Under the pieces are notes generated by a model. That model did no database searches. It was not told the origin of the DNA and saw nothing but the letters and a program-made list of their open reading frames with translations. A DNA stretch of 32,916 nucleotides. It comes from an uncultured Clostridia bacterium. Lineage in GTDB: Bacteria > Bacillota > Clostridia > Oscillospirales > Acutalibacteraceae. This document shows, in pieces, positions 719-26,973 of the stretch (positions are counted from its first letter, which is position 1; each line of letters opens with the position of its first letter). Location: assembly GCA_946415335.1 (NCBI GenBank), contig CAMKSB010000005.1, forward strand, positions 1 to 32,916, in the 5' to 3' direction. A program made the position numbers and the translations under genes.

Positions 719-2044
719 ATGAGCAAGAAAACAGGCAGCGGCAGGCGCTTCATGATTGCTAAAAACTTAATAATGATGCTTGCGACGCTGGCTGCGATTC
801 TTGTTGCGATTTTTGCGTGGTTTTCGCAAAATACCAAAGCAGAAGCAGAGGGGATTTATGTGAGAGCTAAGACCGGCGATTTGATCGAGCTGGCGGTTCC
901 GGATCCAGAAACCGGCGAGGTTCCTCTCAACAACAAGGCGTGGAGCCCTACGCTTGATTTTAGAAAGTCCGGCTATCTTCAAAATTTGGTAAAGGATGTT
1001 ACCAGCAGTGGAGAACAGTTTGTGATTCCGGATTTTGAGGCGGCAAAAGGTCTGAAGGACGGCAGACAGGTGATTGCCAGTTCCACTTGGGCCAAAGGTC
1101 TGTCTACCAGAGAAGCATTAACGAACGAAATAGCGAATGACGACGACCAGTATAATTATATTTCTCTCGATTTTTATGTCCGAGCCAGAACCAATAATTT
1201 GAATGTAGCTGCTGACTCCTATCTGGCTGCTGGTTCAGAGAAAGGTATCGGGGAAAAGCCATCGCAAACCACGGCGCAGGGACTTACTGGCGCGAATGTT
1301 TATCGGCACAGCTCCTATGGCGCCGGAGAAAAATCATCGGAAGCGTTTTCCGCTGACGCGGTCGTAGGCGCGATGCGGGTATCCTTGGTTGGCGCTCAGC
1401 TTAACGGCGTTGACAGAGATGACAACAATCGGGAAACAACGTATTATAATGGAACAAACAACGGAACTTGGAATGATAGTGCCGCGATAAAATTCCTTTG
1501 GCTGCCGAGACCGGATTTGTATTTGCATACTAGCAATAAGCAAAATGAATGGCGGCTCTACACCGGAATTCTTCCCTCAGGTAACCAGGATTCAAGTTAT
1601 CGGAATGGATTGACCGGTGCGCAGCTTGACGAAATTGCCGCACAGAACTATAGCCATACATTTTACAAAGGTAAAACGGAGTCCAACATACAAAAAGGGC
1701 TGAAATATCAGCAATATTTTGATCAAGCATATACGACTGCAGAAGACGTAAACAATGAAACAACTTTTCGTCCTTCGTATTTTAAGGTGAGCAAAGTTAC
1801 TGCGAACACATTTGAAAACGGCAATCTCTATCCAACCTTAGGTCAAAGCGCCGATATTGATTTCGAATCTCAGAATACTTCCGATATAACTTTTGAGCCA
1901 GAGGATATAGACGATACCCGCGAAACTACAGGGTATTACGTCTATAAATATTCGCTGAATATATGGATAGAGGGCGAGGACGCAGAAGCGCGTCGGTCGA
2001 TGAATACCGGTGTGTTCAGCCTTGTGTTGAACTTTGAAGGATAA
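719..2044 (+). CDS. SipW-cognate signal peptide surface protein 1 (TasA/camelysin-like fibre subunit candidate)
   Basis: N-terminus MSKKTGSGRRFMIAKNLIMMLATLAAILVAIFAWFSQNTKAEAEG: basic, hydrophobic, then AWFS. Internal YNYISLDFYVRA and LNIWIEGED motifs shared with the next two genes. Confidence 0.75.
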   Translation: MSKKTGSGRRFMIAKNLIMMLATLAAILVAIFAWFSQNTKAEAEGIYVRAKTGDLIELAVPDPETGEVPLNNKAWSPTLDFRKSGYLQNLVKDVTSSGEQFVIPDFEAAKGLKDGRQVIASSTWAKGLSTREALTNEIANDDDQYNYISLDFYVRARTNNLNVAADSYLAAGSEKGIGEKPSQTTAQGLTGANVYRHSSYGAGEKSSEAFSADAVVGAMRVSLVGAQLNGVDRDDNNRETTYYNGTNNGTWNDSAAIKFLWLPRPDLYLHTSNKQNEWRLYTGILPSGNQDSSYRNGLTGAQLDEIAAQNYSHTFYKGKTESNIQKGLKYQQYFDQAYTTAEDVNNETTFRPSYFKVSKVTANTFENGNLYPTLGQSADIDFESQNTSDITFEPEDIDDTRETTGYYVYKYSLNIWIEGEDAEARRSMNTGVFSLVLNFEG

Positions 2045-2076
2045 CATTTAAAAAGAAAAAAACGAAAAGAGGTGAA

Positions 2077-3363
2077 ATGATGGGCAAATTTAGAAACAGG
2101 TATCTCTCAATCGTTTCTAAAGCGGTTGCTTCGCGTAAAACCGGTAAAAAGCAGCTTGTTTTGTCTATAATTTCACTGATTCTTGCGGCTGTGGTTTTGA
2201 TAACAGGCACCTTTTGCTGGTTCGCGCTGTCAAAATCAACGGGCAACGCGGAAAATGTAAACCTTTCGGTTGGCAACGGCCTCCGCGTCAATGACCTGGG
2301 CGACAGCATACAGAAATTTAAGGATGATTCATTCCTGCTTCCCGCGTCGTCTGTAGACGGAAGAAATCTGTTTTTCCCGACAGACGGAACTGATTTTTCC
2401 AACGAAACCTCGAACATGACCTTCCGCAGCGCAAATGCGGGAGACAGAAATTATGATTATGTGCAGTTGGATTTTAATTTGACTGCCGAAGCAAATAATA
2501 CGACGATTTATCTAGACAAGGACACCAGTCTTAAAATTGATGTGCCGGACGACCTTTCCGGTGCCGCATTAGAAAACTATCAGGCAGCCGCTGCGAAAGC
2601 GGAAAAAGCATTGAGAACCGCCATCTATTATGACGGAATGGAAGCGCCAGTCGTTTTTACATCGCAGATGAATCCATGCTATGTTGAAGCGGTAAAGGAT
2701 ATTGACCGCTCCACCGGACGATTTCTGGAAAGCAGCGGTCAGGTTGCTGTGCCGTTCAAGGATTATTCCTACGGCAAGCACGAACTTGCCGTGCTGAATC
2801 AGGGTGAAACCCGACCTTTTTCACTGATCATTTGGTTGGAGGGTACGGATACAACGAACTGTGTCAGCAACTTTGTTATGCTGAAACAGTTGGTTTTGAA
2901 CCTGAAATTCACCACATGCTGGGATAACACGGTAGATATTATTTTTGATACCGGTGCTCAAAACAACGCTACTGCGACTGCTTTGTCAGATAATCCTGAG
3001 TATTCCTTGGTGCTGAATTATACCTATACCTACACCAACAGCGCAAAGATTCAGGTTACGGAGAATATGAAGTTTACCATGCAGAAGGTTGATCCAAGCG
3101 ATAACACCAAGTGGAGATGCAGTATTCCCGGTATTGCGCATAATGATATCAAATTCCAGATCATTAATGACAGTAATAATACGCCTGTCTATGAATGGAA
3201 GCAAACGTCAAGCGGTGCGTCAACACTAAACCGCGGTACGGCGACGACCTATTTTGTGGATACTATCAACGGTCTGAGTTCGTGCGGACACTGGTATGAC
3301 GGTGAAATAGCGACCCACGGCGAAGGTCACGACAGCGGCATCATTGACGACGACGACTGGTAA
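2077..3363 (+). CDS. SipW-cognate signal peptide surface protein 2
   Basis: RBS-like agaggtg; hydrophobic segment LVLSIISLILAAVVLITGTFCWFALSKSTGNAENVNLSVGNGL; motifs YDYVQLDFNLTAEANN and SLIIWLEGTDTTN parallel those in the neighbours. Confidence 0.75.
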   Translation: MMGKFRNRYLSIVSKAVASRKTGKKQLVLSIISLILAAVVLITGTFCWFALSKSTGNAENVNLSVGNGLRVNDLGDSIQKFKDDSFLLPASSVDGRNLFFPTDGTDFSNETSNMTFRSANAGDRNYDYVQLDFNLTAEANNTTIYLDKDTSLKIDVPDDLSGAALENYQAAAAKAEKALRTAIYYDGMEAPVVFTSQMNPCYVEAVKDIDRSTGRFLESSGQVAVPFKDYSYGKHELAVLNQGETRPFSLIIWLEGTDTTNCVSNFVMLKQLVLNLKFTTCWDNTVDIIFDTGAQNNATATALSDNPEYSLVLNYTYTYTNSAKIQVTENMKFTMQKVDPSDNTKWRCSIPGIAHNDIKFQIINDSNNTPVYEWKQTSSGASTLNRGTATTYFVDTINGLSSCGHWYDGEIATHGEGHDSGIIDDDDW

Positions 3364-3387
3364 TAAACCAATAAAGGAGGTGCCACA

Positions 3388-6066
3388 ATGCGAAAATCAA
3401 AAAGTTCCCAAATAGCGCTGTCCGTTGTGGCGCTCTTATTGGTAGCCGTAACAGTCGTAGGCGTTACCTACAGCTGGATTGACGACGTAAAACAAATTGA
3501 ATTTAATAACGACACTCTTGCAAAAAACGGCGCTCCGCTGAAAACCGGCGTGGACATCAATTCCGATATCGTAATCAATCGCACGCAGAACTCCATCAAT
3601 CTCGGCAACGTGCTGAAAGATTATAACATGGGAGACTATCTTGTGAATCCGGACAATAGTATGGATGATTCGGAGAATTACTGGAACCAGTATAATGATT
3701 CAGATCTGGTTTATCAGTATACAGAAGACGGCGAGAAAAAAAGGCACACCAAATACGACGGCGCGTCTAATGCAAGCGGGGCTCCGGTTTGGAATAAAAC
3801 GAATAATGTTGACGGTATCAACGAAAAGAAGGGTTATTTCTATGAGTCCGGTGGTATGCACCTTTCCGGATGCTACAGCGACGGCGAGCATTTCTATTTT
3901 CCGACATACGCAACAGACAGCGCAAACCAGTCCGTCTTAAACGGCTATCGTGAAGGCAATAAAGATGATGAAAACGTCAATTACATCAGCTTTACTGCCA
4001 AAGTGAGTTCTCCGGACGCGAATGTTGATTTCTGGTTTGAGAATCTTCCTAACATCAAGATGCACGGAACGAACGTTTCTCTCGACCAATACGCTCGTTA
4101 CGCTATTATTGTCGACGGCAGTACGCAGGTATATTCTAGCAGTGGCGTAGCAAGTGGAATGACCGGAGCTTCTCCCGGAACATTAGCCGGCGTTAGACAA
4201 ACCGCAAAATATATGTACTACGATCCTGGCAATAATTTAAATACTACTCAGGATCGTGGTTATAACAGCAATACTCTGTTTTCCATCAAAAAGGGCAATA
4301 CTGTCAATTTGACTATCAAGATTTGGCTGGAAAATGGATTTGCATCGGGTTCGGGCGCTAACTCTGCCTCTTGTGACGTCAGTTTTAGCCTTGTGTCTTC
4401 GTGGGCGTACAGCCGGCGAATCTCGATTGTCGACAGGACTACAGGCGGTGCTGGTCAAAGCTGGCTGAATGATCCGGAAGAAGCTCCGGCAAAGCTTTAT
4501 CTCACGTTCCCGGAATTGCTCGCGGACAGGGATCGTGATCCGAGCCACTGGACAAGAACGGCGTTCCACGACGACGGCTTGTTTTCGGAGCTGACAAGAG
4601 TAGAAGACACTGATAATTACTATGTTGATGTTCCGCTGGTTTACAATAATGAAAAAATGATTCTTTACCGGTGTAACAACAATGGTTTTAATAATGATGA
4701 CGGCACGGTTGAGCGAAGCGATTATAATGTCTTTTGCTGGAACTGGTGGCAAACCTATACACCGAACACTTATATTGACGCAACCTATACGCTCTACGGC
4801 GGTTCCAAGGATAAAACCGCTAACGGATATTTTGGTGAAGCTGAAGTACCGATTACCAACAAAGGCTACGGCACTTGGGGTGACGTTGTAGAAATCAGCG
4901 TGTATTCCCACTATAATAACACAGATTTTGCGGAAAAAGGCTCCGGCAGAGCACTCTACATCAAGGATTTTTCTGATGAGGATACCTCGGGCGATACCTA
5001 TATTTATGAAATGTATCGTGCGGACACGAATACGAATACGCCGTGGAAGGCTTATGTTCCCGTCAGCTCTTCCAAAATCCAGTTCAGATACTTTGGCCCG
5101 GATAATTTGAGAAGAACATTTGGCTACGACAGCTGGAATCATGAGAATCCGCAGCGCCGTCCGTTGCAGTCCACCGGTCTTTACTCTGTTGATGCAACAG
5201 AATATCATTTTGCTGCTGATTTTAATACGAGTTCTGACAAGACCAGAGGCTGGGGTTATTGGAAAGCCGGAACCAAGGATATTGACATGCTTTACCTTGT
5301 CAAGTGCGGCAACATACTGGGCGACGCACAAAATGCATACGATTATATGTATGACGGCAATTCAACGCCTAACAAAAACGCTCTTTGGCCGGGTCATGAA
5401 ATGACAAGATTGAAGGATAATGGCCAATCCGACGTAACATGGCGAGATGGATCTTCTCCTGTAATGGAGTCTGACGCTGGTCGAACCGGTACTTCTACTA
5501 TTTATAATCACCTCATATTCAATAATGGCTCAAGCGGAACGAGTCATCAGACGTCGATTCTTAATGTCTTCCCCGGTTGCTTCTACAATCCGGGTGACGG
5601 AAAATGGTATGGCGTTATAGAAGAAGAGGGAAGAACGGCAACGCAAACCACAACCGCTGCGACCACTGCGGCAACCGAACCGACACAGCCTACTGAATAT
5701 CCAATCATAACGGGTCTGGACGGTGACGGATATTACGTATACGGCGACCTTCTCGGTGACGGAACTTCAAGATATATCAAATTCACAAATTCTAACTCAG
5801 AAACAAAATTCAAAATCGCTCTGTCGTCGAGCAAGACTTACAGTTTCCAAATTGTAAAGGTCAGCGGCGGTAATTCCACAACATATAAGTCTGGCGATAA
5901 TAACACAAAACGCTTATCAAATAGCGGCAATGAGCAAAACTTCGATTTCCATACGTTTGACAGCGGCGAATTGATTTTAACATGTAATGAATCCGGTATT
6001 TTTGAGTTTAAGATTCTATCAGAAAATCAAGATACAATTAGAGTAGGATTCGTACCTTCTTCATGA
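3388..6066 (+). CDS. SipW-cognate signal peptide surface protein 3, multidomain, with possible CBM26-like starch-binding region and Thr-rich linker
   Basis: RBS aaggagg; N-terminus IALSVVALLLVAVTVVGVTYSWIDD; motifs VNYISFTAKV and LTIKIWLENG; region with WPGHEMTRL...YNHLIFNNGSSGTSHQTSILNVFPG resembles starch-binding modules; linker TATQTTTAATTAATEPTQPTEYP precedes a C-terminal beta-rich domain. Confidence 0.75.
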   Translation: MRKSKSSQIALSVVALLLVAVTVVGVTYSWIDDVKQIEFNNDTLAKNGAPLKTGVDINSDIVINRTQNSINLGNVLKDYNMGDYLVNPDNSMDDSENYWNQYNDSDLVYQYTEDGEKKRHTKYDGASNASGAPVWNKTNNVDGINEKKGYFYESGGMHLSGCYSDGEHFYFPTYATDSANQSVLNGYREGNKDDENVNYISFTAKVSSPDANVDFWFENLPNIKMHGTNVSLDQYARYAIIVDGSTQVYSSSGVASGMTGASPGTLAGVRQTAKYMYYDPGNNLNTTQDRGYNSNTLFSIKKGNTVNLTIKIWLENGFASGSGANSASCDVSFSLVSSWAYSRRISIVDRTTGGAGQSWLNDPEEAPAKLYLTFPELLADRDRDPSHWTRTAFHDDGLFSELTRVEDTDNYYVDVPLVYNNEKMILYRCNNNGFNNDDGTVERSDYNVFCWNWWQTYTPNTYIDATYTLYGGSKDKTANGYFGEAEVPITNKGYGTWGDVVEISVYSHYNNTDFAEKGSGRALYIKDFSDEDTSGDTYIYEMYRADTNTNTPWKAYVPVSSSKIQFRYFGPDNLRRTFGYDSWNHENPQRRPLQSTGLYSVDATEYHFAADFNTSSDKTRGWGYWKAGTKDIDMLYLVKCGNILGDAQNAYDYMYDGNSTPNKNALWPGHEMTRLKDNGQSDVTWRDGSSPVMESDAGRTGTSTIYNHLIFNNGSSGTSHQTSILNVFPGCFYNPGDGKWYGVIEEEGRTATQTTTAATTAATEPTQPTEYPIITGLDGDGYYVYGDLLGDGTSRYIKFTNSNSETKFKIALSSSKTYSFQIVKVSGGNSTTYKSGDNNTKRLSNSGNEQNFDFHTFDSGELILTCNESGIFEFKILSENQDTIRVGFVPSS

Positions 6067-6087
6067 TAACGTAAAGGTGGTGATACC

Positions 6088-7458
6088 ATGAAAACAACAA
6101 AAAAGCTAATTGCGCTGCTCCTGATTTTGGCGATGGGCGCGGTTGCAATGATCCCTTCCACGTTTTCGTGGTATAACCACAGCGGCAGCCAGACAGGAAA
6201 CAAGATGTCATATGTCAAAAACAAGCTTCCTGTTTCCGCCGGTTCTGTCTCGTCCGTAGAGACAAAAATGTTCCGTATGGATGGTAACAAGCTCTATTAT
6301 GACGAAAAGGGCAACAAGCAGTACGCGGAGAATTCCAGCGAGGTCAACGGCACTTTAGCAACCAACACGAGCGGCACTGTTACCAGCGGACATACGCAAT
6401 ACTTCGGCACAACCTTTACCAATTCAGGCACTGCCCCTGTCTATGTTAATCTGTATTTGAAGGATTATTCAAATAATCCGAAAAGCTATATCGGCACTAT
6501 CGCGCCAAGCCTGACGCACAAGGGAATATCGTCCTCGGTACACCTTGTCAACAGCAATATCGTTCGCATATACTTTCAGTGGGATAGGGCGAACAAGTGG
6601 AATAACGCGTCCGCAAAGCATTACGTTGTGTTCACGACCAAAAGCGGTAATGGTTATATCTGCTTGGAAGGAACTGATTCACCAAACGCGGCATATTCCA
6701 TCTATACGGGCAATCAATCCTTCATTTCCACCCAGGGAAGACTAACGAAATCATCTAATGCGGATGTGCTGGCAAAACAGGAGTCCATTCTCAGCGAAGA
6801 CAAGATTACGAAAACCTACTATGTCGATTTGCCGTCGAACACTACTGAGTTTTATTTCGCGACTGACGGTAACGACAACGGCATCACGAAGCTCGGCGCG
6901 AATGTAACGGTTAAGCAGAATTGGTACCGAACAAAAACCATCACCAATATTCATGCGGAAACTGGCTATTATCTCACCGGTTCTACAGATGACGACAACA
7001 CCGGTACCGCTCAGTACGCGACGTTTAATATTCCGGGAGGTATCAGTGTTAATTCCTATTTTGATGAGGTGACAATGGCGCCGGGTCAGCATGCTCATAT
7101 TTCCCTTAACCGCAACGTTCATTATACCGGTGAGAAGGCGCTTTATTCTGCCGACGACGATGATTCCAAAGCAACGATCAACGAGAACAGCGGTTATATA
7201 ACAGCCCTTCTTGGTTTTTCAGGCTGTACTTTCTCAACAACGATCACCGGCTCTTTAGGAGACACCAAAATCCTGTCGACTTCGGCAGTCAATCCCGTTA
7301 CTCTTGATTCCATGCCGATCGCGACAAACGTGCTTGTGCCGGGCAAAACCGTCGACCCGACCACAAATAAGGAAGTGGACGGAAAATTTGAGATAATTTG
7401 GTATCTTCAGAATGATTCCGGCACTTGTGCTTTTTCTGGAATCTATTATACAAAATAG
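6088..7458 (+). CDS. SipW-cognate signal peptide surface protein 4
   Basis: RBS aaaggtggtg; N-terminus LIALLLILAMGAVAMIPSTFSWYNHSGSQTGNKMSYVKNKL; ends just before a strong terminator. Confidence 0.7.
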   Translation: MKTTKKLIALLLILAMGAVAMIPSTFSWYNHSGSQTGNKMSYVKNKLPVSAGSVSSVETKMFRMDGNKLYYDEKGNKQYAENSSEVNGTLATNTSGTVTSGHTQYFGTTFTNSGTAPVYVNLYLKDYSNNPKSYIGTIAPSLTHKGISSSVHLVNSNIVRIYFQWDRANKWNNASAKHYVVFTTKSGNGYICLEGTDSPNAAYSIYTGNQSFISTQGRLTKSSNADVLAKQESILSEDKITKTYYVDLPSNTTEFYFATDGNDNGITKLGANVTVKQNWYRTKTITNIHAETGYYLTGSTDDDNTGTAQYATFNIPGGISVNSYFDEVTMAPGQHAHISLNRNVHYTGEKALYSADDDDSKATINENSGYITALLGFSGCTFSTTITGSLGDTKILSTSAVNPVTLDSMPIATNVLVPGKTVDPTTNKEVDGKFEIIWYLQNDSGTCAFSGIYYTK

Positions 7459-15665: not shown

Positions 15666-15690
15666 CCGCCCGAATTTCCCGGGCGGTTTC
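15666..15690 (+). terminator. Possible weak rho-independent terminator
   Basis: ccgcccg-aatttcc-cgggcgg followed by tttctct. Confidence 0.4.
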
Positions 15691-15746
15691 TCTGAACCAA
15701 AACACATCTTCCTGTGTCTGTATTAAGAGAAAGGCACGGTGACAGC

Positions 15747-17516
15747 ATGAAGAAACCACAATATGACGTCAATCAGCGGCAGCTGCGGCGCTGTGTAAAA
15801 AAGGCGCAGCGCGGTGACAAACGGGCGAAGGAGCAGCTTGTCGGCATGACCTATTCCTACGTCTATTACTACTGCCTCAAAATGCTCCGCAGCGAGGACA
15901 AGGCGCGCGACGCGGCGCAGGATATTTTTGTAACGGTTTTTGAGAAGCTCTCCGCCGTCAAAAAGCCGGAAGCGTTCTTTGGCTGGCTGAAAACCGTCAC
16001 GGCGAACCACTGCCGCAATCTGGTGACGCGGCGGCGAGAGACGGAGGAATTGCGCGAGGACTGGGAGGACAACAATCCGCAGGTGATACCGGAGGAATGT
16101 CTGGAAACAGAGGAAACCTGCGCCATTATCCGCGCGGCAGTGGACGCGCTGCCGGAGATTCAGCGCGAGGTAATTCTTCTGTATTACTACCAGCAGCGCA
16201 GCGTGAAGGAAATCGCGGATTTGCTTGAAATCAAAGAAGGAACCGTCAAGAGCCGACTGTATACGGCGCGTCAGGCGCTTAAAAGGGTGATTGCACATTA
16301 CGGCAAGGACGAGTTGTCGTTCTCTATGCTCTCCTACGCGCTGTTCAGCGAAGCAAAGACAAAAAGCGGTGCGGCGACAGCGGTAACGCTCGGTACGGGC
16401 GAGGTGCTTGCCGTTTCTTCCGCAGCGAAGGTCGGCGCAATTGCCGGAGCCGGAATCGGCGTCAAGGTGGCGGCGTTTTCCTGCGCAGGCGTTCTGGCGG
16501 CAACCGGAACGGGAACGTATCTCTACGCGCAGCATGTTTCCGCACAAAAAGATGAGGCTTCCATGACGGCGCAGGAGAAAATCGCGGAGCCGACAGAAGC
16601 GGAGCTGTGGGCGCTGTTTTATCTGACGTTTACCGACGCGGACAGGCGGCGAACGCTGACCTTTCACGCGGACGAGCCGTTAAACTCCGCCGCCAACAAG
16701 GACTACCTACTTGACCGTGCGTGCAACACGGCTGATTTCTTTCACACGCTGCAGGCGACCAATTATCAGTTTGACAAGGCGAATCTGGCAAATCCGGACG
16801 CAAAAGACAGCGCGCTTTACATCACCTACAGCTGTGACGCGGACAGGCGGCGCGCCAAGGAGCTGACCTGCTCGGCAGATGGACAGCCGGTTTCCTATCA
16901 GCTGTTTCAGAATCACAAGTTCTACGACGCCGATTGCGGCACAGAGACTTGGACAACCTACGCCGATTATGATTCGACGGTTGCGGAAAAGGTCAAAAAC
17001 GCACGTTCCAAGCGGCGCTTGCAGGAATTGTACCGCGATCATTACGTCCGCGTCAATCTTCTGGACGGCGGTGATTATATCGCTTTTGTTGATGTGTCAA
17101 AGCGCCGCCGCTACATGCCGGAGCTGGAGCCCGACCCGAATCCCTATACCTATTATCTGCGCCCGAATTTCTTTGGGACGCCCAATGTCCAGTACCAGCC
17201 GGAGCCGTTTCTCATGCGGATGGGCATGTACGATACCGACTCATGGGAGATTACCGGCGAGACGGAGCAATTCGGCAGATCGTGTCTGACCGTCAGGGGC
17301 GCCGCTAAGGAGCCGTATGATATTGTTTCCTATCGTCTCACCATTGACAAGGAAACCGGCGTGCTGATTGCCTATGAATGCTTTGACGAAAACGGTACGC
17401 TGACACGGCAATTAGTGACTTATGAATTGATTGTAGACGAGCCGCTTGACGACGGTATCTTTGACGATACCGCCGGCGTCCGTCAGCTGCCGGGAGGTGG
17501 TTTGAATGACCAATAA
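15747..17516 (+). CDS. ECF-type RNA polymerase sigma factor fused to TM segment and C-terminal (RseB/LolA-like?) ectodomain
   Basis: Sigma2 region (LVGMTYSYVYYYCLKMLRSEDKARDAAQDIFVTVFEKL) and sigma4 region (LPEIQREVILLYYYQQRSVKEIADLLEIKEGTVKSRLYTARQALK), then hydrophobic VGAIAGAGIGVKVAAFSCAGVLAATGTGTYLY and ~330 aa ending YRLTIDKETGVLIAYECFDENGTLTRQLVTYELIVDEPLDDGIFD. ATG at 15747 is preferred over 15714. Confidence 0.85.
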   Translation: MKKPQYDVNQRQLRRCVKKAQRGDKRAKEQLVGMTYSYVYYYCLKMLRSEDKARDAAQDIFVTVFEKLSAVKKPEAFFGWLKTVTANHCRNLVTRRRETEELREDWEDNNPQVIPEECLETEETCAIIRAAVDALPEIQREVILLYYYQQRSVKEIADLLEIKEGTVKSRLYTARQALKRVIAHYGKDELSFSMLSYALFSEAKTKSGAATAVTLGTGEVLAVSSAAKVGAIAGAGIGVKVAAFSCAGVLAATGTGTYLYAQHVSAQKDEASMTAQEKIAEPTEAELWALFYLTFTDADRRRTLTFHADEPLNSAANKDYLLDRACNTADFFHTLQATNYQFDKANLANPDAKDSALYITYSCDADRRRAKELTCSADGQPVSYQLFQNHKFYDADCGTETWTTYADYDSTVAEKVKNARSKRRLQELYRDHYVRVNLLDGGDYIAFVDVSKRRRYMPELEPDPNPYTYYLRPNFFGTPNVQYQPEPFLMRMGMYDTDSWEITGETEQFGRSCLTVRGAAKEPYDIVSYRLTIDKETGVLIAYECFDENGTLTRQLVTYELIVDEPLDDGIFDDTAGVRQLPGGGLNDQ

Positions 17517-17934
17517 AAGCAAGGAAGCGCTGAAAGGAATTGTCGGAATCCTGCTTGGGCTGACGGTCTTTCTGGAATATGTACCCGGCTTGTTTCCGCT
17601 CATCTGGCTGCTGCAGCCGTTTTTAATCGCTTACGCGCAGCTGATGGTTCATGAAACGCGCTGGTATCGCGCTTCTATCGGCACGCTGCTTGCCACTAAC
17701 GCGGTCAATGTGTTGGTGCTTATCGTTCAGGTGCTGCGCGCGCAGGCGCTCACCGAGGAGCTGAAACAGCACAACCTGATAGCCGGCGAGAACTTTTCAT
17801 ACGTTGTGACCGTGGCGGTGCTGCCTGCCATTTATAAGGCAGCGGCAATCGCTGCCTTTGTCAGCTTTGTCATTGTGTTTTTGGAATGCATTATTCTGTC
17901 AGGCAAGCGTGACAGAAAGCATACTATCGCTTAA
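17506..17934 (+). CDS. Small multi-TM membrane protein of unknown function
   Basis: RBS gggaggtgg; several hydrophobic segments; overlaps the sigma-factor stop by 11 nt. Confidence 0.7.
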   Translation: MTNKSKEALKGIVGILLGLTVFLEYVPGLFPLIWLLQPFLIAYAQLMVHETRWYRASIGTLLATNAVNVLVLIVQVLRAQALTEELKQHNLIAGENFSYVVTVAVLPAIYKAAAIAAFVSFVIVFLECIILSGKRDRKHTIA

Positions 17935-19064: not shown

Positions 19065-21320
19065 ATGGCAAAATTCAAGAAGATTCTTGCCCTGATACTT
19101 GCCGTTTGCGTGATCTGCACTGCAGGCGTTATCGCGGTCAATGCCGCCGAGAACGTCGCTGAGGACGCAGAGGTCGGCGCAGGCGGTATTACTATCCACT
19201 ATTATTGCGAGTCAGGCACCCCCACGATTTATTACTGGAACAGCCTGCCGACCAATTTGGTGACCAATTATCCGGGTAAGACCATGACTGCAGAAGGCAA
19301 CGGCTTCTACAAGTACACCTTCAGCAACGTGACAAAGATCAACTTCCTCTTTGTCGTCAACGGCAAGCAGTCCGAAGAATACACCCAGAACACCGGCGAA
19401 TGGTGGCTCAAGAACAACCGCTGGACAAACAAAGAGCCCGGTCCCACTCCTGTATGGGATAGAGTCGATCTGCGTGAGGACTCCATCTATTTCGTCATCA
19501 CCACCCGTTTCTACGACGGCGACAAGGGCAACAACGTCCACTGCTGGGATGACAAGACCGCCGGCAACCCCGATTCTGACCCCGCATGGCGCGGCGATTT
19601 CAAGGGCTTGATTCAAAAGCTCGACTACATCAAGGCGCTTGGCTTCTCCGCGATCTGGATCACGCCGGTCGTTGAGAACGCCTCCGGTTACGACTACCAC
19701 GGCTATCACGCGCTCGATTTCTCCAAGGTCGATCCCCGTTACGAGAGCCAGGGCGCTACCTATCAGGATCTGATCGACGCTGCTCACGAAAAGGGCATGA
19801 AGATCGTTCAGGACGTTGTATGGAACCATACCGGCAACTGGGGCGAGACTTTCCTGTGCCCGATGTTCCGCAAGAACTACAGCAAGGACTTGGCTTCCGC
19901 CGACTGCATGGAGATCATCCCCGGCAGCGAGATGGCGACCGGTTATCCGAACTACGCTTCTCTCAAGCCCGGCGACCAGTTCCAGGCGCGTCTGGACATC
20001 ATGCAGGCGACCAAGAACCCGAAGTACAACTCCAAGGGCTACTACCATGATCCCGAGAACGCCGGTTGGGGACAGGCGACCGAGCAGACAGGCTCCATCG
20101 AGGGCGACTGCCGCGACGTCAACACCGAGAACCAGCCCGTAGCGGACTACATCAACCAGGCTTATACCCAGTACGTCGACATGGGCGTTGACGCGTTCCG
20201 TCTCGACACCGAAAAGCATATCAACCGCTGGACGCTCAACAGCGCTTACTTCCCGACCTACAGCAAGTATGATAACTTCTACATCTTCGGTGAGGTTTGC
20301 GCAAGATGGAGTGAGTTCATCAACGAGGGCGGCGCGTCCGACTCCTGCTTCTTCTACACCTGGAAGGAGACCGACAGCAAGTGGATGAACAACTGGAGCA
20401 AGACGCCCTGCACCGATTCCTCACATAACGGCACCAACATCAAGGCTTCTATGGCTCACTACGGACAGTACCAGCAGAAGAGCGTGCCCAACACCAGCAA
20501 GAACGCCATGCTCGAGGGCGTGAAGTATCACACTCCCGACTACAGCAAGGCGAACGGCACCGGCGTTATCGACTTCACCATGCACTGGAACTTCGAGAAC
20601 GCGAACAAGGCGTTCAACACCGCTCTCGGCGAAGACCACGCCTTCAACGATTCCACCTGGAATGTTACCTACGTTGACTCCCACGACTATTCTCCCGACT
20701 TCTGCCAGAAGGTTCGCTACATCGGCGGCACCCAGGCATGGGCTGAGAATATGGATCTGATGTTCACCTTCCGCGGCATTCCCTGTCTGTACTACGGCTC
20801 CGAGGTCGAGTTCCAGAAGGGCGCCATCATCGACGTCGGTCCCAACTCACCTCTGGCGCAGACCGGCCGTGCTTACTTCGGCGACAACATCGAAGGCAAC
20901 ATCACCGCGACCGATTTCGGCAAGTACACTGCCAGCGGCGCTGCTCAGACCACGCTGAACAAGCCCCTTGCTCAGCACGTGAGAAAGCTCAACATGATCC
21001 GCCGTGCGATCCCTGCTCTCCAGAAAGGTCAGTACACCACCTCCAACGTGAGCGGCGGCAACATGGCGTTCACCAGACGTTACACCGCGAACGGCGTTGA
21101 CAGCCTCGCATGCGTAGCGATCTCTGGCGGCGCGACCTTCAAGAACCTGCCTGACGGCAAGTACATCGACGCGGTCACCGGCGACGTCAAGACCGTTTCC
21201 GGCGGCACCCTGACGGTTCCCAGCGTCGGCAGCGCGAACATGAGAGTATATGTCTGCTGCGCAAGCGGCTTCAAGGGCATCTCCGGCAAGATCGGCGATA
21301 CCGGCACTTACCTCAAATAA
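19065..21320 (+). CDS. Secreted GH13 alpha-amylase family protein with N-terminal starch-binding-like (CBM26-type) module
   Basis: RBS aaggagg; signal peptide ILALILAVCVICTAGVIAVNA; GH13 motifs DVVWNHTG, GVDAFRLDTEKHI (nucleophile Asp), YIFGEV (acid Glu), TYVDSHD; N-terminal ITIHYYCESGTPTIYYWNSLP...YPGKTMTAEGNGFYKYTF...GEWWLKNNRW. Confidence 0.92.
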   Translation: MAKFKKILALILAVCVICTAGVIAVNAAENVAEDAEVGAGGITIHYYCESGTPTIYYWNSLPTNLVTNYPGKTMTAEGNGFYKYTFSNVTKINFLFVVNGKQSEEYTQNTGEWWLKNNRWTNKEPGPTPVWDRVDLREDSIYFVITTRFYDGDKGNNVHCWDDKTAGNPDSDPAWRGDFKGLIQKLDYIKALGFSAIWITPVVENASGYDYHGYHALDFSKVDPRYESQGATYQDLIDAAHEKGMKIVQDVVWNHTGNWGETFLCPMFRKNYSKDLASADCMEIIPGSEMATGYPNYASLKPGDQFQARLDIMQATKNPKYNSKGYYHDPENAGWGQATEQTGSIEGDCRDVNTENQPVADYINQAYTQYVDMGVDAFRLDTEKHINRWTLNSAYFPTYSKYDNFYIFGEVCARWSEFINEGGASDSCFFYTWKETDSKWMNNWSKTPCTDSSHNGTNIKASMAHYGQYQQKSVPNTSKNAMLEGVKYHTPDYSKANGTGVIDFTMHWNFENANKAFNTALGEDHAFNDSTWNVTYVDSHDYSPDFCQKVRYIGGTQAWAENMDLMFTFRGIPCLYYGSEVEFQKGAIIDVGPNSPLAQTGRAYFGDNIEGNITATDFGKYTASGAAQTTLNKPLAQHVRKLNMIRRAIPALQKGQYTTSNVSGGNMAFTRRYTANGVDSLACVAISGGATFKNLPDGKYIDAVTGDVKTVSGGTLTVPSVGSANMRVYVCCASGFKGISGKIGDTGTYLK

Positions 21321-21671: not shown

Positions 21672-21866
21672 TTATGCGCCCAGATGGTCGATCAGTTCGG
21701 CGATATAATTCTGGATCGCGGTCGCGTCGGTGACGTCGATCTTGCCGTCGCCGTTGGTGTCGGCAACAGCCAGCTGAGCCGGAGAGAGCTCTGCCATTTC
21801 TGCGAGGTACTGCTGTAACAAGGTCGCGTCGGTAACGTCTACCTTGCCGTCGCCGTTGACGTCGCC
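21672..21866 (-). other. Type I dockerin domain (coding region)
   Basis: GDVNGDGKVDVTDATLLQQYLAEMAELSPAQLAVADTNGDGKIDVTDATAIQNYIAEL: two duplicated Ca-binding D-x-N-G-D-G-K-x-D-x-x-D segments. Confidence 0.93.
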
Positions 21867-24800
21867 GATGATACCGGCGTCGACCGTCTCGGTGGTCGGC
21901 TCAGCGGTCACGCCGCTGTAGCTCTGCGCGCCGTCGGTCACATTGAAGGTGATCTGCGCCTTGGTGGTCTTGCCGGTGATGGCGTAGGTGTCGGCGAATT
22001 CGTCGCCTTCGTTCAGATATACCGGGGTGATCGTCACATCGTCCATTCCGTCGATAACGACGGTCTCGGTGGTGACGGTTTCGGGCTTCATGAATTTGCT
22101 GAATTTCAGGAGATAACCGCCGGGCGTTTCGTCAGCGGTGATCGTTGCCGTCGCGTGGGTGGTGGTGTCGACCAGACTGAAATCAAGACCGAGCTTCTCG
22201 GGCGGAATGTCGAACGACTCGGAGGTCTGGGTTTCGTAACCCTCCTTGAAGACAGTGACGCGGAAGGTGCCTTCGTCGGTCATCCATGCGTAAGCGCCTT
22301 CGCTGTTGGTCAGCAGGGGATTTTCCTGCTCGTAATCAGCGGCGTTCCAAGCCTCCCATTCTTTGGTTTCCTCATTGAACTTTTCAATGGTCGCGGTAGC
22401 GCCTTCCACGGGGTTGCCCTTGACAGCCTCGTAGACAACGCCGGACGGGTCGATCGCGTTGCGCTGCTTGCCGTCCTTGTCGCTGTTATGGTTGTACACA
22501 TCGCCGCCGTCGCCGGGCAGGATGGGCAGTCCGTCGGGTCCGATGCGGACGCCGCCGTGGGTGAAGCTGAAGAAGTTGTCGTTTTCATTTCCCCACTGCC
22601 ACAAGGTATGCAGACCGCCTGTTACAGCTTCGCTCCCCGCGTCAGTCCAATCTCCCTTTACGATATCAATAAGAATATTGATCACGGTGTCTCTGGCTGT
22701 CTCGTGATAGTCGCCGAGCTCGCCGTGAGGCTTGCCGTCCGCGTCATAGTAGAAGACTTCTTTTTTGGTAATGTCGCCGAACCAGTCGGGACCTCCGACC
22801 GGCTCCGTGTCCTTGCCGGGCTCGCCGTAGAACTCCGACTTATACGTATCCTTGCGTTCGCCGTAGAGCCAGAACAGATTCAGTGCGCCGGGAACATAGG
22901 TCTGACCGGGAACGAGCTCGTGGTCGAGGATGTTGAAGTAGCCCTCGCCGATCCACTTGTCGGTCTCGGCGTCGTAGAAGAGCTGCATGAACTTCCACTC
23001 GTCGCCCTTGTGGCTCATCAGAACCATGGCGCAGATGTTTTCGTCGTTTTCAAAATCGAATTCAAACTTGAGCATTTCCGCCGGATTGATACTCACAACG
23101 GGGCTGACGCCCTTGGTGAAAATGCCTGTGATGTCGTAGGTGTTTGCCTGGTTGCCGTGAGAGAGGTTCGTCTCGTGAGGCGCGATGAATTTGGTGATGT
23201 TCACGGTCTCGGTCGCCTTGACGATCTTGAGAGCGCCGGGCGCATAGATGAAGGTGGAAACGTCGCTCTTTGCGCCGTCGCATTCAGCGTAAACCTCAAA
23301 CTTATCGCCGTTCACCGCGACCTTGCCCTCGGGCATGATGCTCAGCGGTTCGGAGATATACTTGCCGGTGTACTTGTTCGGGGTCACGGTATGGGTCACC
23401 GCTTCCTCTCTTGCGCCTTCCTTGTTCAGGCGTGCGATAACGATCTTTACTTCCTTGTCCGCAGAAACGGAATAGCCGGAAACGGTAAGGGCGGTATCTG
23501 TCAGCTTAGTGGGAGCGAAGAGGGAGAGCTTCGCGGTGGTGAACTGAACCTCGCCAAGCGGCTTTCTGAAACCGGTGCCCTTGTGGCGGAACTCAACCTC
23601 GGCGCTCACATTTTTGACCGCGACGTTGGAGCTGTTGAGATAGCCCGAGAAGTGCAGCGTGCCCTTTGTTGCGGCGCCCGCGAGATCAAAGCTCTTGTAG
23701 TCGCCCGTATAGGTGCTGCCGTCGAACGCAAAGCCCTCGGCGTCGAACGAGGCGGGAATGATCTCCAGATTATCGGGTAAGTTGAGATAAAGCCTCTGCA
23801 TCTCGATATCCGCGTCATCCCAGTCGTCACGGATGTCATACTTGACGGTGAAGTGTACGAGGGTGTGGTCAACGCCGATGTTGCCGGTGGATTCGATACC
23901 GGTGTTCTCGGGATTGAACACATAGAAGCGCTTATCGGTGAATTTTGGGCAATCCTTGAAGGTGGTGTTGTTGAAGGCGATGTCGTCAACAGGGGTGTTC
24001 AGCGTGGTAAAGTTGTAGCATCTCTCGAATGCGTAGTCGCCGATGCTCTCGAGCTGAGCGGAGCAAGCGACCTCTGTGAGATTGGCGCAGTCCTTGAAGG
24101 CGTGGGCGGGAATACTGTGGATCGACTGCGGCAGTCTCTGGTAGCTGATACCCGAGCGCTCAAAGACGCTGTTTTCCAAGTCGACAACGGTTTCGGGGAT
24201 GACGACGTTCTGCAGCACAGGGCAGCCGTAGAAGCAATACTCCGGGAGCTTTCTGACGCCCGCGCCGAATCCGACGGCGTAGAGGTTGCCGCACTCGGAA
24301 AATGCACTTTTGCCGATCGTCTTGACGCTGTCGGGAATGATCATCGACTCGATGTTGGAGCCTCTGAAGCACTCGTTACCGATCTTGATGACGGTTTCGG
24401 GGATCTCCAGATGGGTCAGCTTGCCGGCGTAGGCGAACAGCTTGTCGTTGAGGGTGGCAATGCCGTCGCTGAAGGTGACGTCGGTGATGTTGGAGCCCGT
24501 AAACGGCGCGTCGGTTGCCGACAGGGTCTTGGGGATATAAACAGAGGTCAGCGCACTGTCTCTGAAGATGCCGTAATTCATCGTCTGGATACCTTCGTGG
24601 AGCGTGAAGGTTTTCAGCGACGTCGTGCCGGCAAACGCGCCGGAATCGATCCTCTTGACGCTCTCGGGGATATCGACGTTATCGAGCACGGGGCAGCTGT
24701 CAAAGGCGTTGTAGCCGATGGTGCGCAGCGTTGAGGGCAGTTCGACGGTCGTCAGCTTCTGACAGTCCTTGAACAGCTCGCCGGGCAGCTCGGTGACGCC

Positions 24801-25988
24801 CTCGGGGATCGTGATGCTTTCAATGCCTGTGTTCCGGAACATGCCCGTGACGAACGTGGTGTAGCCCTCGTCAAAATGAACGGTTTTCAGGGAAGTACAG
24901 TTAAAGAAGGAATAGTTGCCCTTCTTGACGGAAGCGGGAAGGGTCAGCTCTTTAATGGCGGTTCTTTCAAAGGAATAGCTGCCGACGTTCTCAAGATTCT
25001 TGCTCAGCGTGACTTTCTCGAGCTTTGAGCAGTCCTTGAAGGAGGCGTTTCCGATCGTGGTCACGTTGTCGGGAATGGTGATCTCTTTCAGGCTGACGCA
25101 GTGACCAAAGGCGTTGTCGGGAATGTTGGTGACGCCCTTGCCGATGGTCACCTTCGTGAGCTTATCGCACTCGTACAGGACGTAGGTGCCCCATTCGGTC
25201 ACGCTGTCGGGGATCACGATGGATTCGAGAGAACGCATCTGGCACAGTGAATCATTGCCGAGACGGGTGACGGTGTCGGGAATGGTCAGCTGACGGATGG
25301 AATTGCAGTCCTCAAACATATCGTTGGGGATGGCAGTGATGCCCTCGGCGAAGTTGACGGTCTCCAGCAGTTCTGCCTCGGCAAAGGTCTCGTTCGCGTA
25401 GGTGACGGTCAGGGGAATGTAGATCTCCGATACCGGCGCGCCTGCGAAGACGCGGTCGCCCATGTATTCCAGTCCCTCGTTCAGCTTGACGGTGGTAAGG
25501 ATGGGGCAGCTGCTGAAAGCTCTTGAATCGAGCTTTTTGACGTTTGCGGGTACCTCAACGGACTGCAGCGCTCTGCACTGCTCGAAGCACCACGGACCGA
25601 TCGTCGTAACGCCGGAGCCGAAGTCGATGTTCTCGAGCAGGTCGCAGCTGAAAAAGGCGTGATCGCCGATGGTTTTGACGCTTGTGGGGAAAGCGATGCT
25701 TGTGAGCTCGTCGTTGTTTTCAAAGGCTCTGGAGCCGATCTCCGAGACGTCCTTTCCTCCGAGCGTTGCCGGCACGGTAACATCTGCCTGCGTGCCGTTG
25801 TACTTTGTGATCTGAGCGGTGTCGTCGTCCAGAACAACATAGGTGTAGTCACCCTCGGTTTGGGCTTCGGCGGCAAATGCCGTTGTGCCAAAAACATTTC
25901 CAACCACAGCCATGCTGAGCAGCAGGGTCGCGGAAAGTGTTACCGACAAAGCTTTTGTCAGTAATCTGCTTGTGTGTTGATGCTTCAT
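21672..25988 (-). CDS. Secreted BspA-like leucine-rich-repeat protein with C-terminal type I dockerin
   Basis: True start at 25988 (MKHQHTSRLLTKALSVTLSATLLLSMAVVGNVFGTTAFAAEA), RBS aaggagg. Many LRR_5 units (e.g. VTTIGNASFKDCSKLEKVTLSKNLENVGSYSFERT). Carboxypeptidase-regulatory-like segment (DPSGVVYEAVKGNPVEGATATIE...). Dockerin at the C-terminus. Confidence 0.92.
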   Translation of the reverse strand: MKHQHTSRLLTKALSVTLSATLLLSMAVVGNVFGTTAFAAEAQTEGDYTYVVLDDDTAQITKYNGTQADVTVPATLGGKDVSEIGSRAFENNDELTSIAFPTSVKTIGDHAFFSCDLLENIDFGSGVTTIGPWCFEQCRALQSVEVPANVKKLDSRAFSSCPILTTVKLNEGLEYMGDRVFAGAPVSEIYIPLTVTYANETFAEAELLETVNFAEGITAIPNDMFEDCNSIRQLTIPDTVTRLGNDSLCQMRSLESIVIPDSVTEWGTYVLYECDKLTKVTIGKGVTNIPDNAFGHCVSLKEITIPDNVTTIGNASFKDCSKLEKVTLSKNLENVGSYSFERTAIKELTLPASVKKGNYSFFNCTSLKTVHFDEGYTTFVTGMFRNTGIESITIPEGVTELPGELFKDCQKLTTVELPSTLRTIGYNAFDSCPVLDNVDIPESVKRIDSGAFAGTTSLKTFTLHEGIQTMNYGIFRDSALTSVYIPKTLSATDAPFTGSNITDVTFSDGIATLNDKLFAYAGKLTHLEIPETVIKIGNECFRGSNIESMIIPDSVKTIGKSAFSECGNLYAVGFGAGVRKLPEYCFYGCPVLQNVVIPETVVDLENSVFERSGISYQRLPQSIHSIPAHAFKDCANLTEVACSAQLESIGDYAFERCYNFTTLNTPVDDIAFNNTTFKDCPKFTDKRFYVFNPENTGIESTGNIGVDHTLVHFTVKYDIRDDWDDADIEMQRLYLNLPDNLEIIPASFDAEGFAFDGSTYTGDYKSFDLAGAATKGTLHFSGYLNSSNVAVKNVSAEVEFRHKGTGFRKPLGEVQFTTAKLSLFAPTKLTDTALTVSGYSVSADKEVKIVIARLNKEGAREEAVTHTVTPNKYTGKYISEPLSIMPEGKVAVNGDKFEVYAECDGAKSDVSTFIYAPGALKIVKATETVNITKFIAPHETNLSHGNQANTYDITGIFTKGVSPVVSINPAEMLKFEFDFENDENICAMVLMSHKGDEWKFMQLFYDAETDKWIGEGYFNILDHELVPGQTYVPGALNLFWLYGERKDTYKSEFYGEPGKDTEPVGGPDWFGDITKKEVFYYDADGKPHGELGDYHETARDTVINILIDIVKGDWTDAGSEAVTGGLHTLWQWGNENDNFFSFTHGGVRIGPDGLPILPGDGGDVYNHNSDKDGKQRNAIDPSGVVYEAVKGNPVEGATATIEKFNEETKEWEAWNAADYEQENPLLTNSEGAYAWMTDEGTFRVTVFKEGYETQTSESFDIPPEKLGLDFSLVDTTTHATATITADETPGGYLLKFSKFMKPETVTTETVVIDGMDDVTITPVYLNEGDEFADTYAITGKTTKAQITFNVTDGAQSYSGVTAEPTTETVDAGIIGDVNGDGKVDVTDATLLQQYLAEMAELSPAQLAVADTNGDGKIDVTDATAIQNYIAELIDHLGA

Positions 25989-26178
25989 GATGAACCTCCT
26001 TAGCTGTTGAAATTGAAGCGTTATCAATGAAAATCGCTGATATAACGCGATAATCTTGTTATAAATATACCATATTTGCCTTGATATGTCCATGCGTGTC
26101 AACAGAATGTCCGTGACTCTTGTGAACATTACATTTTTCTTTACTTGTTTATTCCTGTTTCGGAACGGTTTCAGCGCC

Positions 26179-26207
26179 TTGCTTTTCGCACTTTTATATA
26201 GTATAAT
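26179..26207 (+). promoter_or_regulatory. Putative sigma-A promoter of the ABC transporter cluster
   Basis: TTGCTT (26179-26184), 17-bp spacer, TATAAT (26202-26207). Confidence 0.6.
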
Positions 26208-26238
26208 AGAAAAGATCAATGCACAGGAGTTGATTGAA

Positions 26239-26973
26239 TTGATACAAGTACAGCATTTTACCAAGAAATTCGGCGAGAAAACCGTTGTCAGTGATATCTC
26301 GTTCACCGCGAGAGACGGCGCGATCACCGGCTTCATCGGTCACAACGGCGCCGGCAAATCCACCACCATCAAGGCGATCACCGGCGTGATCCGGCCGACA
26401 GAGGGTACGATCCTGATCAACGGCGTGGACATCGTCAAGGATCCGCTCAAAGCCAAGCGGCAGTTTGGCTATGTGTCGGACAGTCCGGATCATTTTCTGC
26501 GGCTGACCGGTCTGGAATATCTCCATTTTATGGCGGATATCTATGACGCGCCGACAGACGGCAGGGCTGAATTTATCGAAGGCTATGCCAAGCGCTTCGG
26601 CATCTACGACGCGCTCAACAGTTCTATCCTGTCCTACTCCCACGGTATGCGCCAGAAGATCATGATCATGGGCGCGCTGATCCACGATCCGTCCGTGTGG
26701 ATACTGGACGAGCCGATGACCGGTCTCGATCCGCAGTCGGCGTTTGAACTCAAGCAGATGATGCGCGAGCATGTGGAAAAGGGCAATTCGGTATTCTTTT
26801 CCACCCATGTGCTCGAGGTCGCCGAAAAACTCTGCGACGAGATCTGCATCATCAAGTCAGGCGAGCTGCTCTACAGCGGAACGCTGGACGACCTCAAAGC
26901 GACGCACAAATCGCAGGCGTCCTTAGAGAATATTTTCCTGGAATTAACAGAAACAATAGAATCGGAGGGTTAA
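26239..26973 (+). CDS. ABC transporter ATP-binding protein
   Basis: Likely TTG start at 26239 after GGAG; FIGHNGAGKSTTIKAITG (Walker A), LSYSHGMRQKIMIMGALIHDPSVWILDEPMTGLDP (signature and Walker B), FFSTHVLEVAEKL. The ORF-track ATG at 26086 precedes the promoter. Confidence 0.92.
   Translation: MIQVQHFTKKFGEKTVVSDISFTARDGAITGFIGHNGAGKSTTIKAITGVIRPTEGTILINGVDIVKDPLKAKRQFGYVSDSPDHFLRLTGLEYLHFMADIYDAPTDGRAEFIEGYAKRFGIYDALNSSILSYSHGMRQKIMIMGALIHDPSVWILDEPMTGLDPQSAFELKQMMREHVEKGNSVFFSTHVLEVAEKLCDEICIIKSGELLYSGTLDDLKATHKSQASLENIFLELTETIESEG

Follow-up and report, generated by a model that had tools for sequence, protein, structure and literature searches.

A one-piece ECF sigma factor with a predicted membrane anchor and an RseB-like ectodomain in gut Clostridia

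In the present study we describe a gene of an uncultured gut bacterium of the class Clostridia whose single product of 589 residues joins an intact ECF sigma factor to one membrane segment and an ectodomain of about 320 amino acids. The gene lies on the forward strand of a stretch of 32,916 nucleotides, which was analysed as a whole and is referred to as the window, and its one-piece architecture is confirmed by a single open frame of 589 codons. We propose, with a probability of about 0.6, that the product is a single-protein receptor, in which the sigma factor is tethered by one C-terminal helix to an extracytoplasmic sensor of RseB/MucB/LolA fold and would be set free by proteolysis.

The features of the locus are collected in Table 1. 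The start found mechanically, GTG 15714, was rejected because the -10 element of the predicted promoter follows it directly, which leaves ATG 15747 as the credible start. With sigma2 and sigma4 the protein has the regions of an ECF (group 4) sigma factor, and in the NCBIfam scan it scored above the cut-off of TIGR02937, the model of the ECF superfamily; no sigma1.1, sigma3 or other sigma region was reported in the fusion by the Pfam and NCBIfam scans. A preliminary description of this DNA had read here full sigma2/sigma4 motifs within a one-piece sigma-membrane-ectodomain protein. Both parts of that reading were borne out, the former by matches above the Pfam cut-offs and the latter by a correct frame and coordinates, and by the presence of the complete fusion in eight genomes: that of the window (G000), its approximately 92%-identical relative G126, G030, G145, G152 (where the fusion is cut by a contig end), G069, G163 and G070.

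Table 1. Features of the fusion locus and their positions in the window.
Feature	Position	Strand	Basis
GC-rich inverted repeat CCGCCCG-N7-CGGGCGG then TTTCTC, probable terminator of the preceding gene	15666..15686	+	sequence reading
Predicted ECF-type promoter: -35 TGAACC 15693-15698, 16-bp spacer, -10 TGTCT 15715-15719	15693..15719	+	conserved motif
One-piece, predicted membrane-tethered ECF sigma factor with RseB-like ectodomain, 589 aa	15747..17516	+	ORF, domain scans and homologues
Sigma region 2 (residues 35-97)	15849..16037	+	Pfam PF04542, E 1.8e-7, above cut-off
Sigma region 4 (residues 127-178)	16125..16280	+	Pfam PF08281, E 3.3e-16, above cut-off
Juxtamembrane motif FSMLSYALFSEAK (residues 192-204), predicted cytoplasmic	16320..16358	+	alignment of 11 clade-A chassis
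Predicted membrane segment (residues 232-260; likely helix 241-260)	16440..16526	+	hydropathy; conserved position in homologues
Ectodomain, predicted RseB/MucB/LolA-like fold (residues 270-589)	16554..17513	+	AlphaFold2, Foldseek, Pfam
Part of ectodomain matching LolA_like/MucB_RseB profiles (residues 496-570)	17232..17456	+	Pfam E 0.0022 / 0.0059, below curated cut-off
Gene of small membrane protein, 142 aa, four hydrophobic segments	17506..17934	+	ORF, hydropathy

The ectodomain was modelled with AlphaFold2 from 18 homologues (pLDDT 85.6, pTM 0.85). A Foldseek search of PDB structures with this model gave E. coli RseB as the top match (3m4w, E 3.3e-9, probability 1.00), with 2p4b, 2v42 and 6jau, likewise at probability 1.00, among the further top matches, which comprise RseB, then P. 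aeruginosa MucB, LolA and members of the superfamily. The TM-scores to RseB and MucB are only 0.34-0.40 over the whole query, and target-side values reach 0.5-0.58 for some single-domain LolA proteins; we therefore claim a LolA/RseB-superfamily fold and not a full RseB, with RseB as the nearest solved relative. Among Pfam families, too, MucB_RseB is the one that most ectodomain members match, eight of the 18 doing so at E <= 1 (best 1.7e-5). The window ectodomain alone stays below the PF03888 cut-off (17.9 bits vs 22.3), and only a chance match was returned when PDB sequences were searched with a profile of the ectodomain. Pfam matches and fold search are two independent methods that both lead to the RseB/MucB/LolA family, and the predicted structure thus points to an ectodomain sharing the fold of PF03888. 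The resemblance to RseB, MucB and LolA noticed earlier at the end of the protein is in this way upheld, both by the weak Pfam matches and by the model of residues ~270-589 which had been suggested as a check.

Upstream of the gene, the predicted promoter reads TGAACC-N16-TGTCTGTATTAA from position 15693. The element TGAACC-N15/16-YGTCY followed by an A/T run precedes all eight RseB-type fusions, as well as a related fusion in G078, at distances of -54 to -174 and within diverged flanking sequence. Among the clade-A fusions examined (clade A being that of the window in the sigma tree) the motif stands in nine out of ten, with a near variant in the tenth; G027 has the near variant CAAACC-N15-CGTCT, and many other fusions are preceded by CAAACC, TGAACC or TGAAAC variants. 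The predicted promoter has the AAC in the -35 and the GTC in the -10 element that mark ECF promoters, which are often autoregulatory. A strict form of the motif matches once in the window, ahead of the fusion gene. In a weight-matrix scan the same site reached 23.3 bits, a score somewhat inflated by its presence among the training sequences, against 12.5-17.9 bits for the best site in shuffled windows, and the runner-up in the window (14.3 bits) falls within this null range. As the window has no other strong site for the conserved ECF-type promoter, the sigma factor very probably drives its own gene from a predicted autoregulatory promoter, as expected of an active, self-regulating ECF sigma factor. 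The inverted repeat before the promoter is conserved in the upstream sequence of G126; it falls outside the T-run rule of the terminator scan and is not among the terminators which that scan listed. As a probable terminator it would make the sigma gene its own transcription unit.

Control of the adjacent surface and amylase genes, and a promoter motif shared upstream of 719, 7756, 19065 and 15747, had been suggested in the preliminary description. These suggestions are not supported: the motif occurs once in the window, at the gene at 15747, and none of the best 15 weight-matrix sites in the window lies upstream of 719, 7756 or 19065. A looser regulon motif may nevertheless cover these neighbours. 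Genome-wide, stringent and looser patterns returned the promoter of the fusion gene plus chance-level sites in each genome, hence we claim no regulon beyond the gene itself. Stand-alone ectodomain genes were rejected as regulon members, the motif being found in 0 of 12.

Elsewhere in the window, an alpha-amylase with a CBM26 starch-binding module is encoded at 19065-21320; sister sigma fusions of other species also have CBM26-like domains for ectodomains. A large BspA-type leucine-rich repeat protein (21672-26336) carries a C-terminal dockerin, suggesting cellulosome-type assembly in the organism. Four successive genes at 719-7458 encode proteins of 441, 428, 892 and 456 aa, with one hydrophobic segment each and no Pfam match at E <= 1e-5.

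In the mechanism that we propose, the membrane location of the tethered sigma factor and/or the juxtamembrane segment would hold it away from RNA polymerase. Sigma region 4 is separated from the membrane by about 50-60 residues, and the alignment of 11 clade-A chassis shows Y197 and L199 (motif SYxL) to be invariant within this linker; the motif is a candidate for a built-in inhibitory or protease-recognition element. A lipid, a lipoprotein or a fragment of the envelope, bound as ligand in the LolA-type cavity, would open the stalk to cleavage by a site-1 protease; the sigma domain would next be freed by a site-2 protease, and the free sigma factor would amplify its own gene and a further regulon. 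Proteolytic release is plausible by analogy with IutY of Pseudomonas putida (ECF243), the only experimentally proven one-piece case, which is released by Prc and RseP and becomes constitutively active once most of its extension is removed (PMC8999054), and release by proteolysis has equally been proposed for ECF48, ECF52 and ECF53 (PMC5826349, PMC8999054). A site-2 protease gene is present in the window genome, as it is in 14 of 14 control genomes; such proteases are near universal and the presence of one therefore lends weak support to release.

The main rival, which we regard as unlikely yet deserving of attention, dispenses with proteolysis: the sigma factor would remain tethered and be switched by conformation or clustering, in the manner of the one-component membrane regulators CadC and ToxR. 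With no recognisable anti-sigma domain in the fusion, inhibition may be purely steric, the sigma domain could reach DNA on its cytoplasmic linker of ~50 residues, and the regulon may be very small, with essentially one strong site per genome, the gene's own promoter. However, a sigma factor must join core polymerase and leave the promoter, and both steps should be harder for a tethered one. Furthermore, IutY, the one-piece ECF sigma factor that has been studied, is released by proteolysis (PMC8999054), and release remains the mechanism that we favour.

Both mechanisms place the ectodomain across a membrane. Residues 232-250 form the sole hydrophobic peak of the protein, with a modest mean Kyte-Doolittle value of 1.76, and the nearly invariant Lys240 indicates that the membrane helix is likely to span about 241-260. 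The peak stands at the same place in all seven other RseB-type fusions (1.57-1.97, the lowest value being that of G126), which agrees with the membrane topology anticipated for this segment in the earlier description. In sister proteins built on this chassis the helices are stronger (up to 2.2 in clade A and 2.9 in clade B) and are followed by Ser/Thr/Pro-rich stalks and CBM26-like or Big_2 domains, which are typical of the cell exterior, and most members keep the position of the hydrophobic segment despite their differing ectodomains. The strongest argument comes from ten ectodomain homologues without a sigma domain, each of which begins with a signal peptide-like segment, mostly with a lipobox; these signal peptides support a location of the ectodomain outside the cell. 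The full-length AlphaFold model has a pLDDT of 59, with residues 184-301 (linker and membrane segment) below 50, and the helix and the inhibitory contact are therefore not captured by it. It has also to be considered that the segment does not span the membrane and that the RseB/LolA-like part is a cytoplasmic ligand- or lipid-binding controller of the sigma factor, comparable to the SnoaL-type extensions of ECF41. The modest hydropathy in the window protein and in G126, and a conserved lysine inside the best hydropathy window, would fit such an arrangement, whereas the signal peptides of the stand-alone homologues, the helices, stalks and domains of the sister proteins and the constant place of the segment make it improbable.

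The fusion protein appears to be self-contained. The Pfam and NCBIfam scans found no recognisable anti-sigma domain in it, none of about a dozen fusions scanned against Pfam has one, and no neighbouring gene is shared across fusion loci of different lineages. With no anti-sigma gene beside it, the initial view of a one-piece system is supported. The small membrane protein encoded downstream, initially thought to be a possible regulator, finds no support as a dedicated one, since among the fusion loci read its gene adjoins the fusion only in the window and in G126. An ordinary two-gene system, in which this product would be the anti-sigma factor or a co-sensor, is suggested by its four hydrophobic segments and by an overlap of 11 bases with the sigma gene, from which co-transcription is probable; we consider it very unlikely, because no such neighbour is found at the fusion loci of G030, G145, G163 and G070, and the domain scans matched the product to no anti-sigma family, nor to any other family above cut-off.

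The ectodomain family was detected by its profile in 19 of the 150 genomes of the genus and, weakly, in four other genomes among 291 of the class. The named homologue records belong to uncultured Clostridia and to metagenome genomes of Ruminococcus type; roe-deer rumen and, apparently, rabbit gut are the sources of some. Between the window and G126, dN/dS amounts to 0.14 in the sigma part, 0.14 in the linker with the membrane segment and 0.31 in the ectodomain, and between G069 and G163 to about 0.1 in all three parts; by these ratios the three-part fusion is under purifying selection throughout. An assembly chimera, a pseudogene or a decaying gene was rejected, because the fusion occurs in eight genomes with dN/dS well below 1 in all parts.

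A second, more distant branch of the ectodomain is homologous to the first in a profile-profile comparison (E 8e-13), and its members occur in four settings. In G120 and in G070 (G070:C6) the domain makes up the C-terminal part of a membrane protein that also has a region of anti-sigma type (DUF4179-like, sub-threshold) and whose gene directly follows an ECF gene. In G034 an ECF gene is followed by the gene of a DUF4367 membrane protein and then by that of a secreted LolA-like protein (L088 4901-7783), the gene order of rpoE-rseA-rseB in a Clostridium-class bacterium. The domain stands alone in G063, and in G078 it is apparently joined to the sigma chassis in a fusion that has a frameshift close to its end. 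Judging by the position of their genes and by general knowledge, the DUF4179 and DUF4367 proteins are taken here to be anti-sigma factors. Thus, this kind of sensor recurs with ECF sigma factors, whether on the same polypeptide, on a second or on a third one, and such homologues, on or beside ECF/anti-sigma pairs, support a sensor role of the ectodomain. The ectodomain gene of G029 was tried as the split-off half of a two-gene system and rejected, having no adjoining sigma gene. Genus-restricted stand-alone RseB-like lipoproteins (L069, L070, L071, L073 and others) sometimes occur alongside the fused form in one genome, and some of their genes are preceded by a sequence resembling a housekeeping promoter. 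That the ectodomain is a remnant or carrier with no sensing role, on a sigma factor acting constitutively on its own gene, is brought to mind by stand-alone relatives with no sigma gene nearby, but is most improbable given the purifying selection on the ectodomain (dN/dS 0.09-0.31), the repeated joining of the same chassis to different ectodomains and the recurrence of related domains on or beside ECF/anti-sigma pairs.

A profile of the chassis, that is sigma, linker and membrane segment, has matches in 78 of the 150 genomes of the genus, and roughly seventy loci, counted by eye, run through the membrane segment into a long C-terminal region. The chassis comprises several clades, also outside the genus, and that of the window (clade A) is well supported (99/94 in the sigma tree); its ectodomains are RseB-like, CBM26-like (sub-threshold, best 1.4e-4), Big_2 (above cut-off) and others. 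A search of plasmids with the chassis gave partial matches to the sigma domain only. The clearest case of modularity is the purD locus, shared by two fusions, in G070 and in a relative of G121, with the common order purH-purD-[fusion]-copper-ATPase, the gene names being assigned by sequence resemblance. At this locus the purine genes are 91-93% identical and the ATPase 75%, the two fusions are 62% identical over residues 1-287 (sigma, linker and membrane segment) and sisters in the sigma tree (99/95), and their ectodomains are unrelated. The comparison indicates that an ectodomain was replaced in place, with sigma factor, predicted anchor and predicted promoter kept. We lean, if only slightly, towards the view that gut Clostridia possess a large and modular family of sigma receptors, each a single protein, in which an autoregulating chassis with no anti-sigma domain would be kept off by its tether or juxtamembrane peptide and combined with swapped ectodomains.

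Other long ECF proteins were observed beside this family. The window genome encodes a second, distant ECF fusion with a membrane segment (L042 1514-3154, contig 140), whose Thr/Pro-rich stalk leads to an ectodomain with no identified family. Four fusions of the same genus (L137, L138, L139 and L141) have ectodomains with a C-x2-C motif and a downstream His, the motifs being placed between repeats of the KTVxHPAE or KxVxVKEAW type, and these may be metal-binding extracellular tails. Five long ECF proteins of the same order (L036, L039, L044, L045 and L046) continue after the sigma part for about 350 residues with no membrane segment, in which one stretch resembles a winged helix.

One-piece membrane ECF sigma factors are already known, and an RseB-like ectodomain with no anti-sigma domain is a new form of them. 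Those described have a fused anti-sigma domain (a zinc finger or a membrane anti-sigma factor) and are mostly actinobacterial or proteobacterial. Like the actinobacterial ECF48, ECF52 (SCO4117 of Streptomyces coelicolor) and ECF53 (PMC5826349, PMC8999054), the fusion unites sigma2/sigma4, a C-terminal membrane segment and an extracytoplasmic region in one polypeptide. This last region is carbohydrate-binding in ECF52 and RseB-like in the window fusion, and the zinc-finger anti-sigma domain which the three groups have between sigma and membrane segment is missing from the latter. An ECF52-like zinc finger was rejected, as no zinc-finger family matched and residues 126-245 of the window protein contain no Cys (single His, 184). 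IutY also combines sigma factor and membrane sensor in one protein, whereas its sigma part is fused to a membrane-bound anti-sigma factor and serves TonB-type cell-surface signalling; the window fusion has no anti-sigma domain and a different ectodomain, and no outer membrane is expected around it. The anti-sigma factor fused in ECF243 is of the FecR kind, and neither FecR nor another anti-sigma family was found in the fusion by the Pfam and NCBIfam scans.

RpoE-RseA-RseB and AlgU-MucA-MucB likewise couple an ECF sigma factor to an extracytoplasmic sensor of the same fold, in three separate proteins instead of one; RseB is a soluble periplasmic protein that binds RseA, whereas the window ectodomain is part of the sigma polypeptide. 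LPS, the known signal of RseB in E. coli, should be absent from this clostridial lineage. In the SigI-RsgI systems of Clostridium thermocellum, extracellular sensing is coupled to an alternative sigma factor through swappable sensory ectodomains, in two proteins where the fusion has one; membership in RsgI was rejected, as the Pfam and NCBIfam scans found no RsgI N-terminal domain in the fusions. ECF262 (type SFB89493.1, Ruminococcus albus) is an ECF group with a mechanistically unstudied regulatory extension (PMC8999054, table 2). Compared by description only, it resembles the present family in having such an extension and in its bacterial neighbourhood, and the family may belong to it. Text searches of the open literature, outside the ECF reclassification paper, returned no description of a sigma factor with an RseB/LolA-type ectodomain.

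As a rule, a sigma factor is restrained by an anti-sigma domain, either separate or fused. With about seventy one-piece genes in 150 genomes of one genus, and no recognisable anti-sigma domain in about a dozen scanned, silencing by tethering becomes directly testable. In the RseB-type branch, the sensor of the envelope stress pathway that has been studied best would sit on the sigma factor itself, and the system formed by a sigma factor and a LolA-like sensor is found in related genomes as three genes, as two genes and as one. A swappable ectodomain together with a predicted promoter of its own would make a convenient biosensor part. If the modular reading is true, exchanges of the ectodomain (RseB-like, CBM26-like, Ig-like and others) would create new senses.
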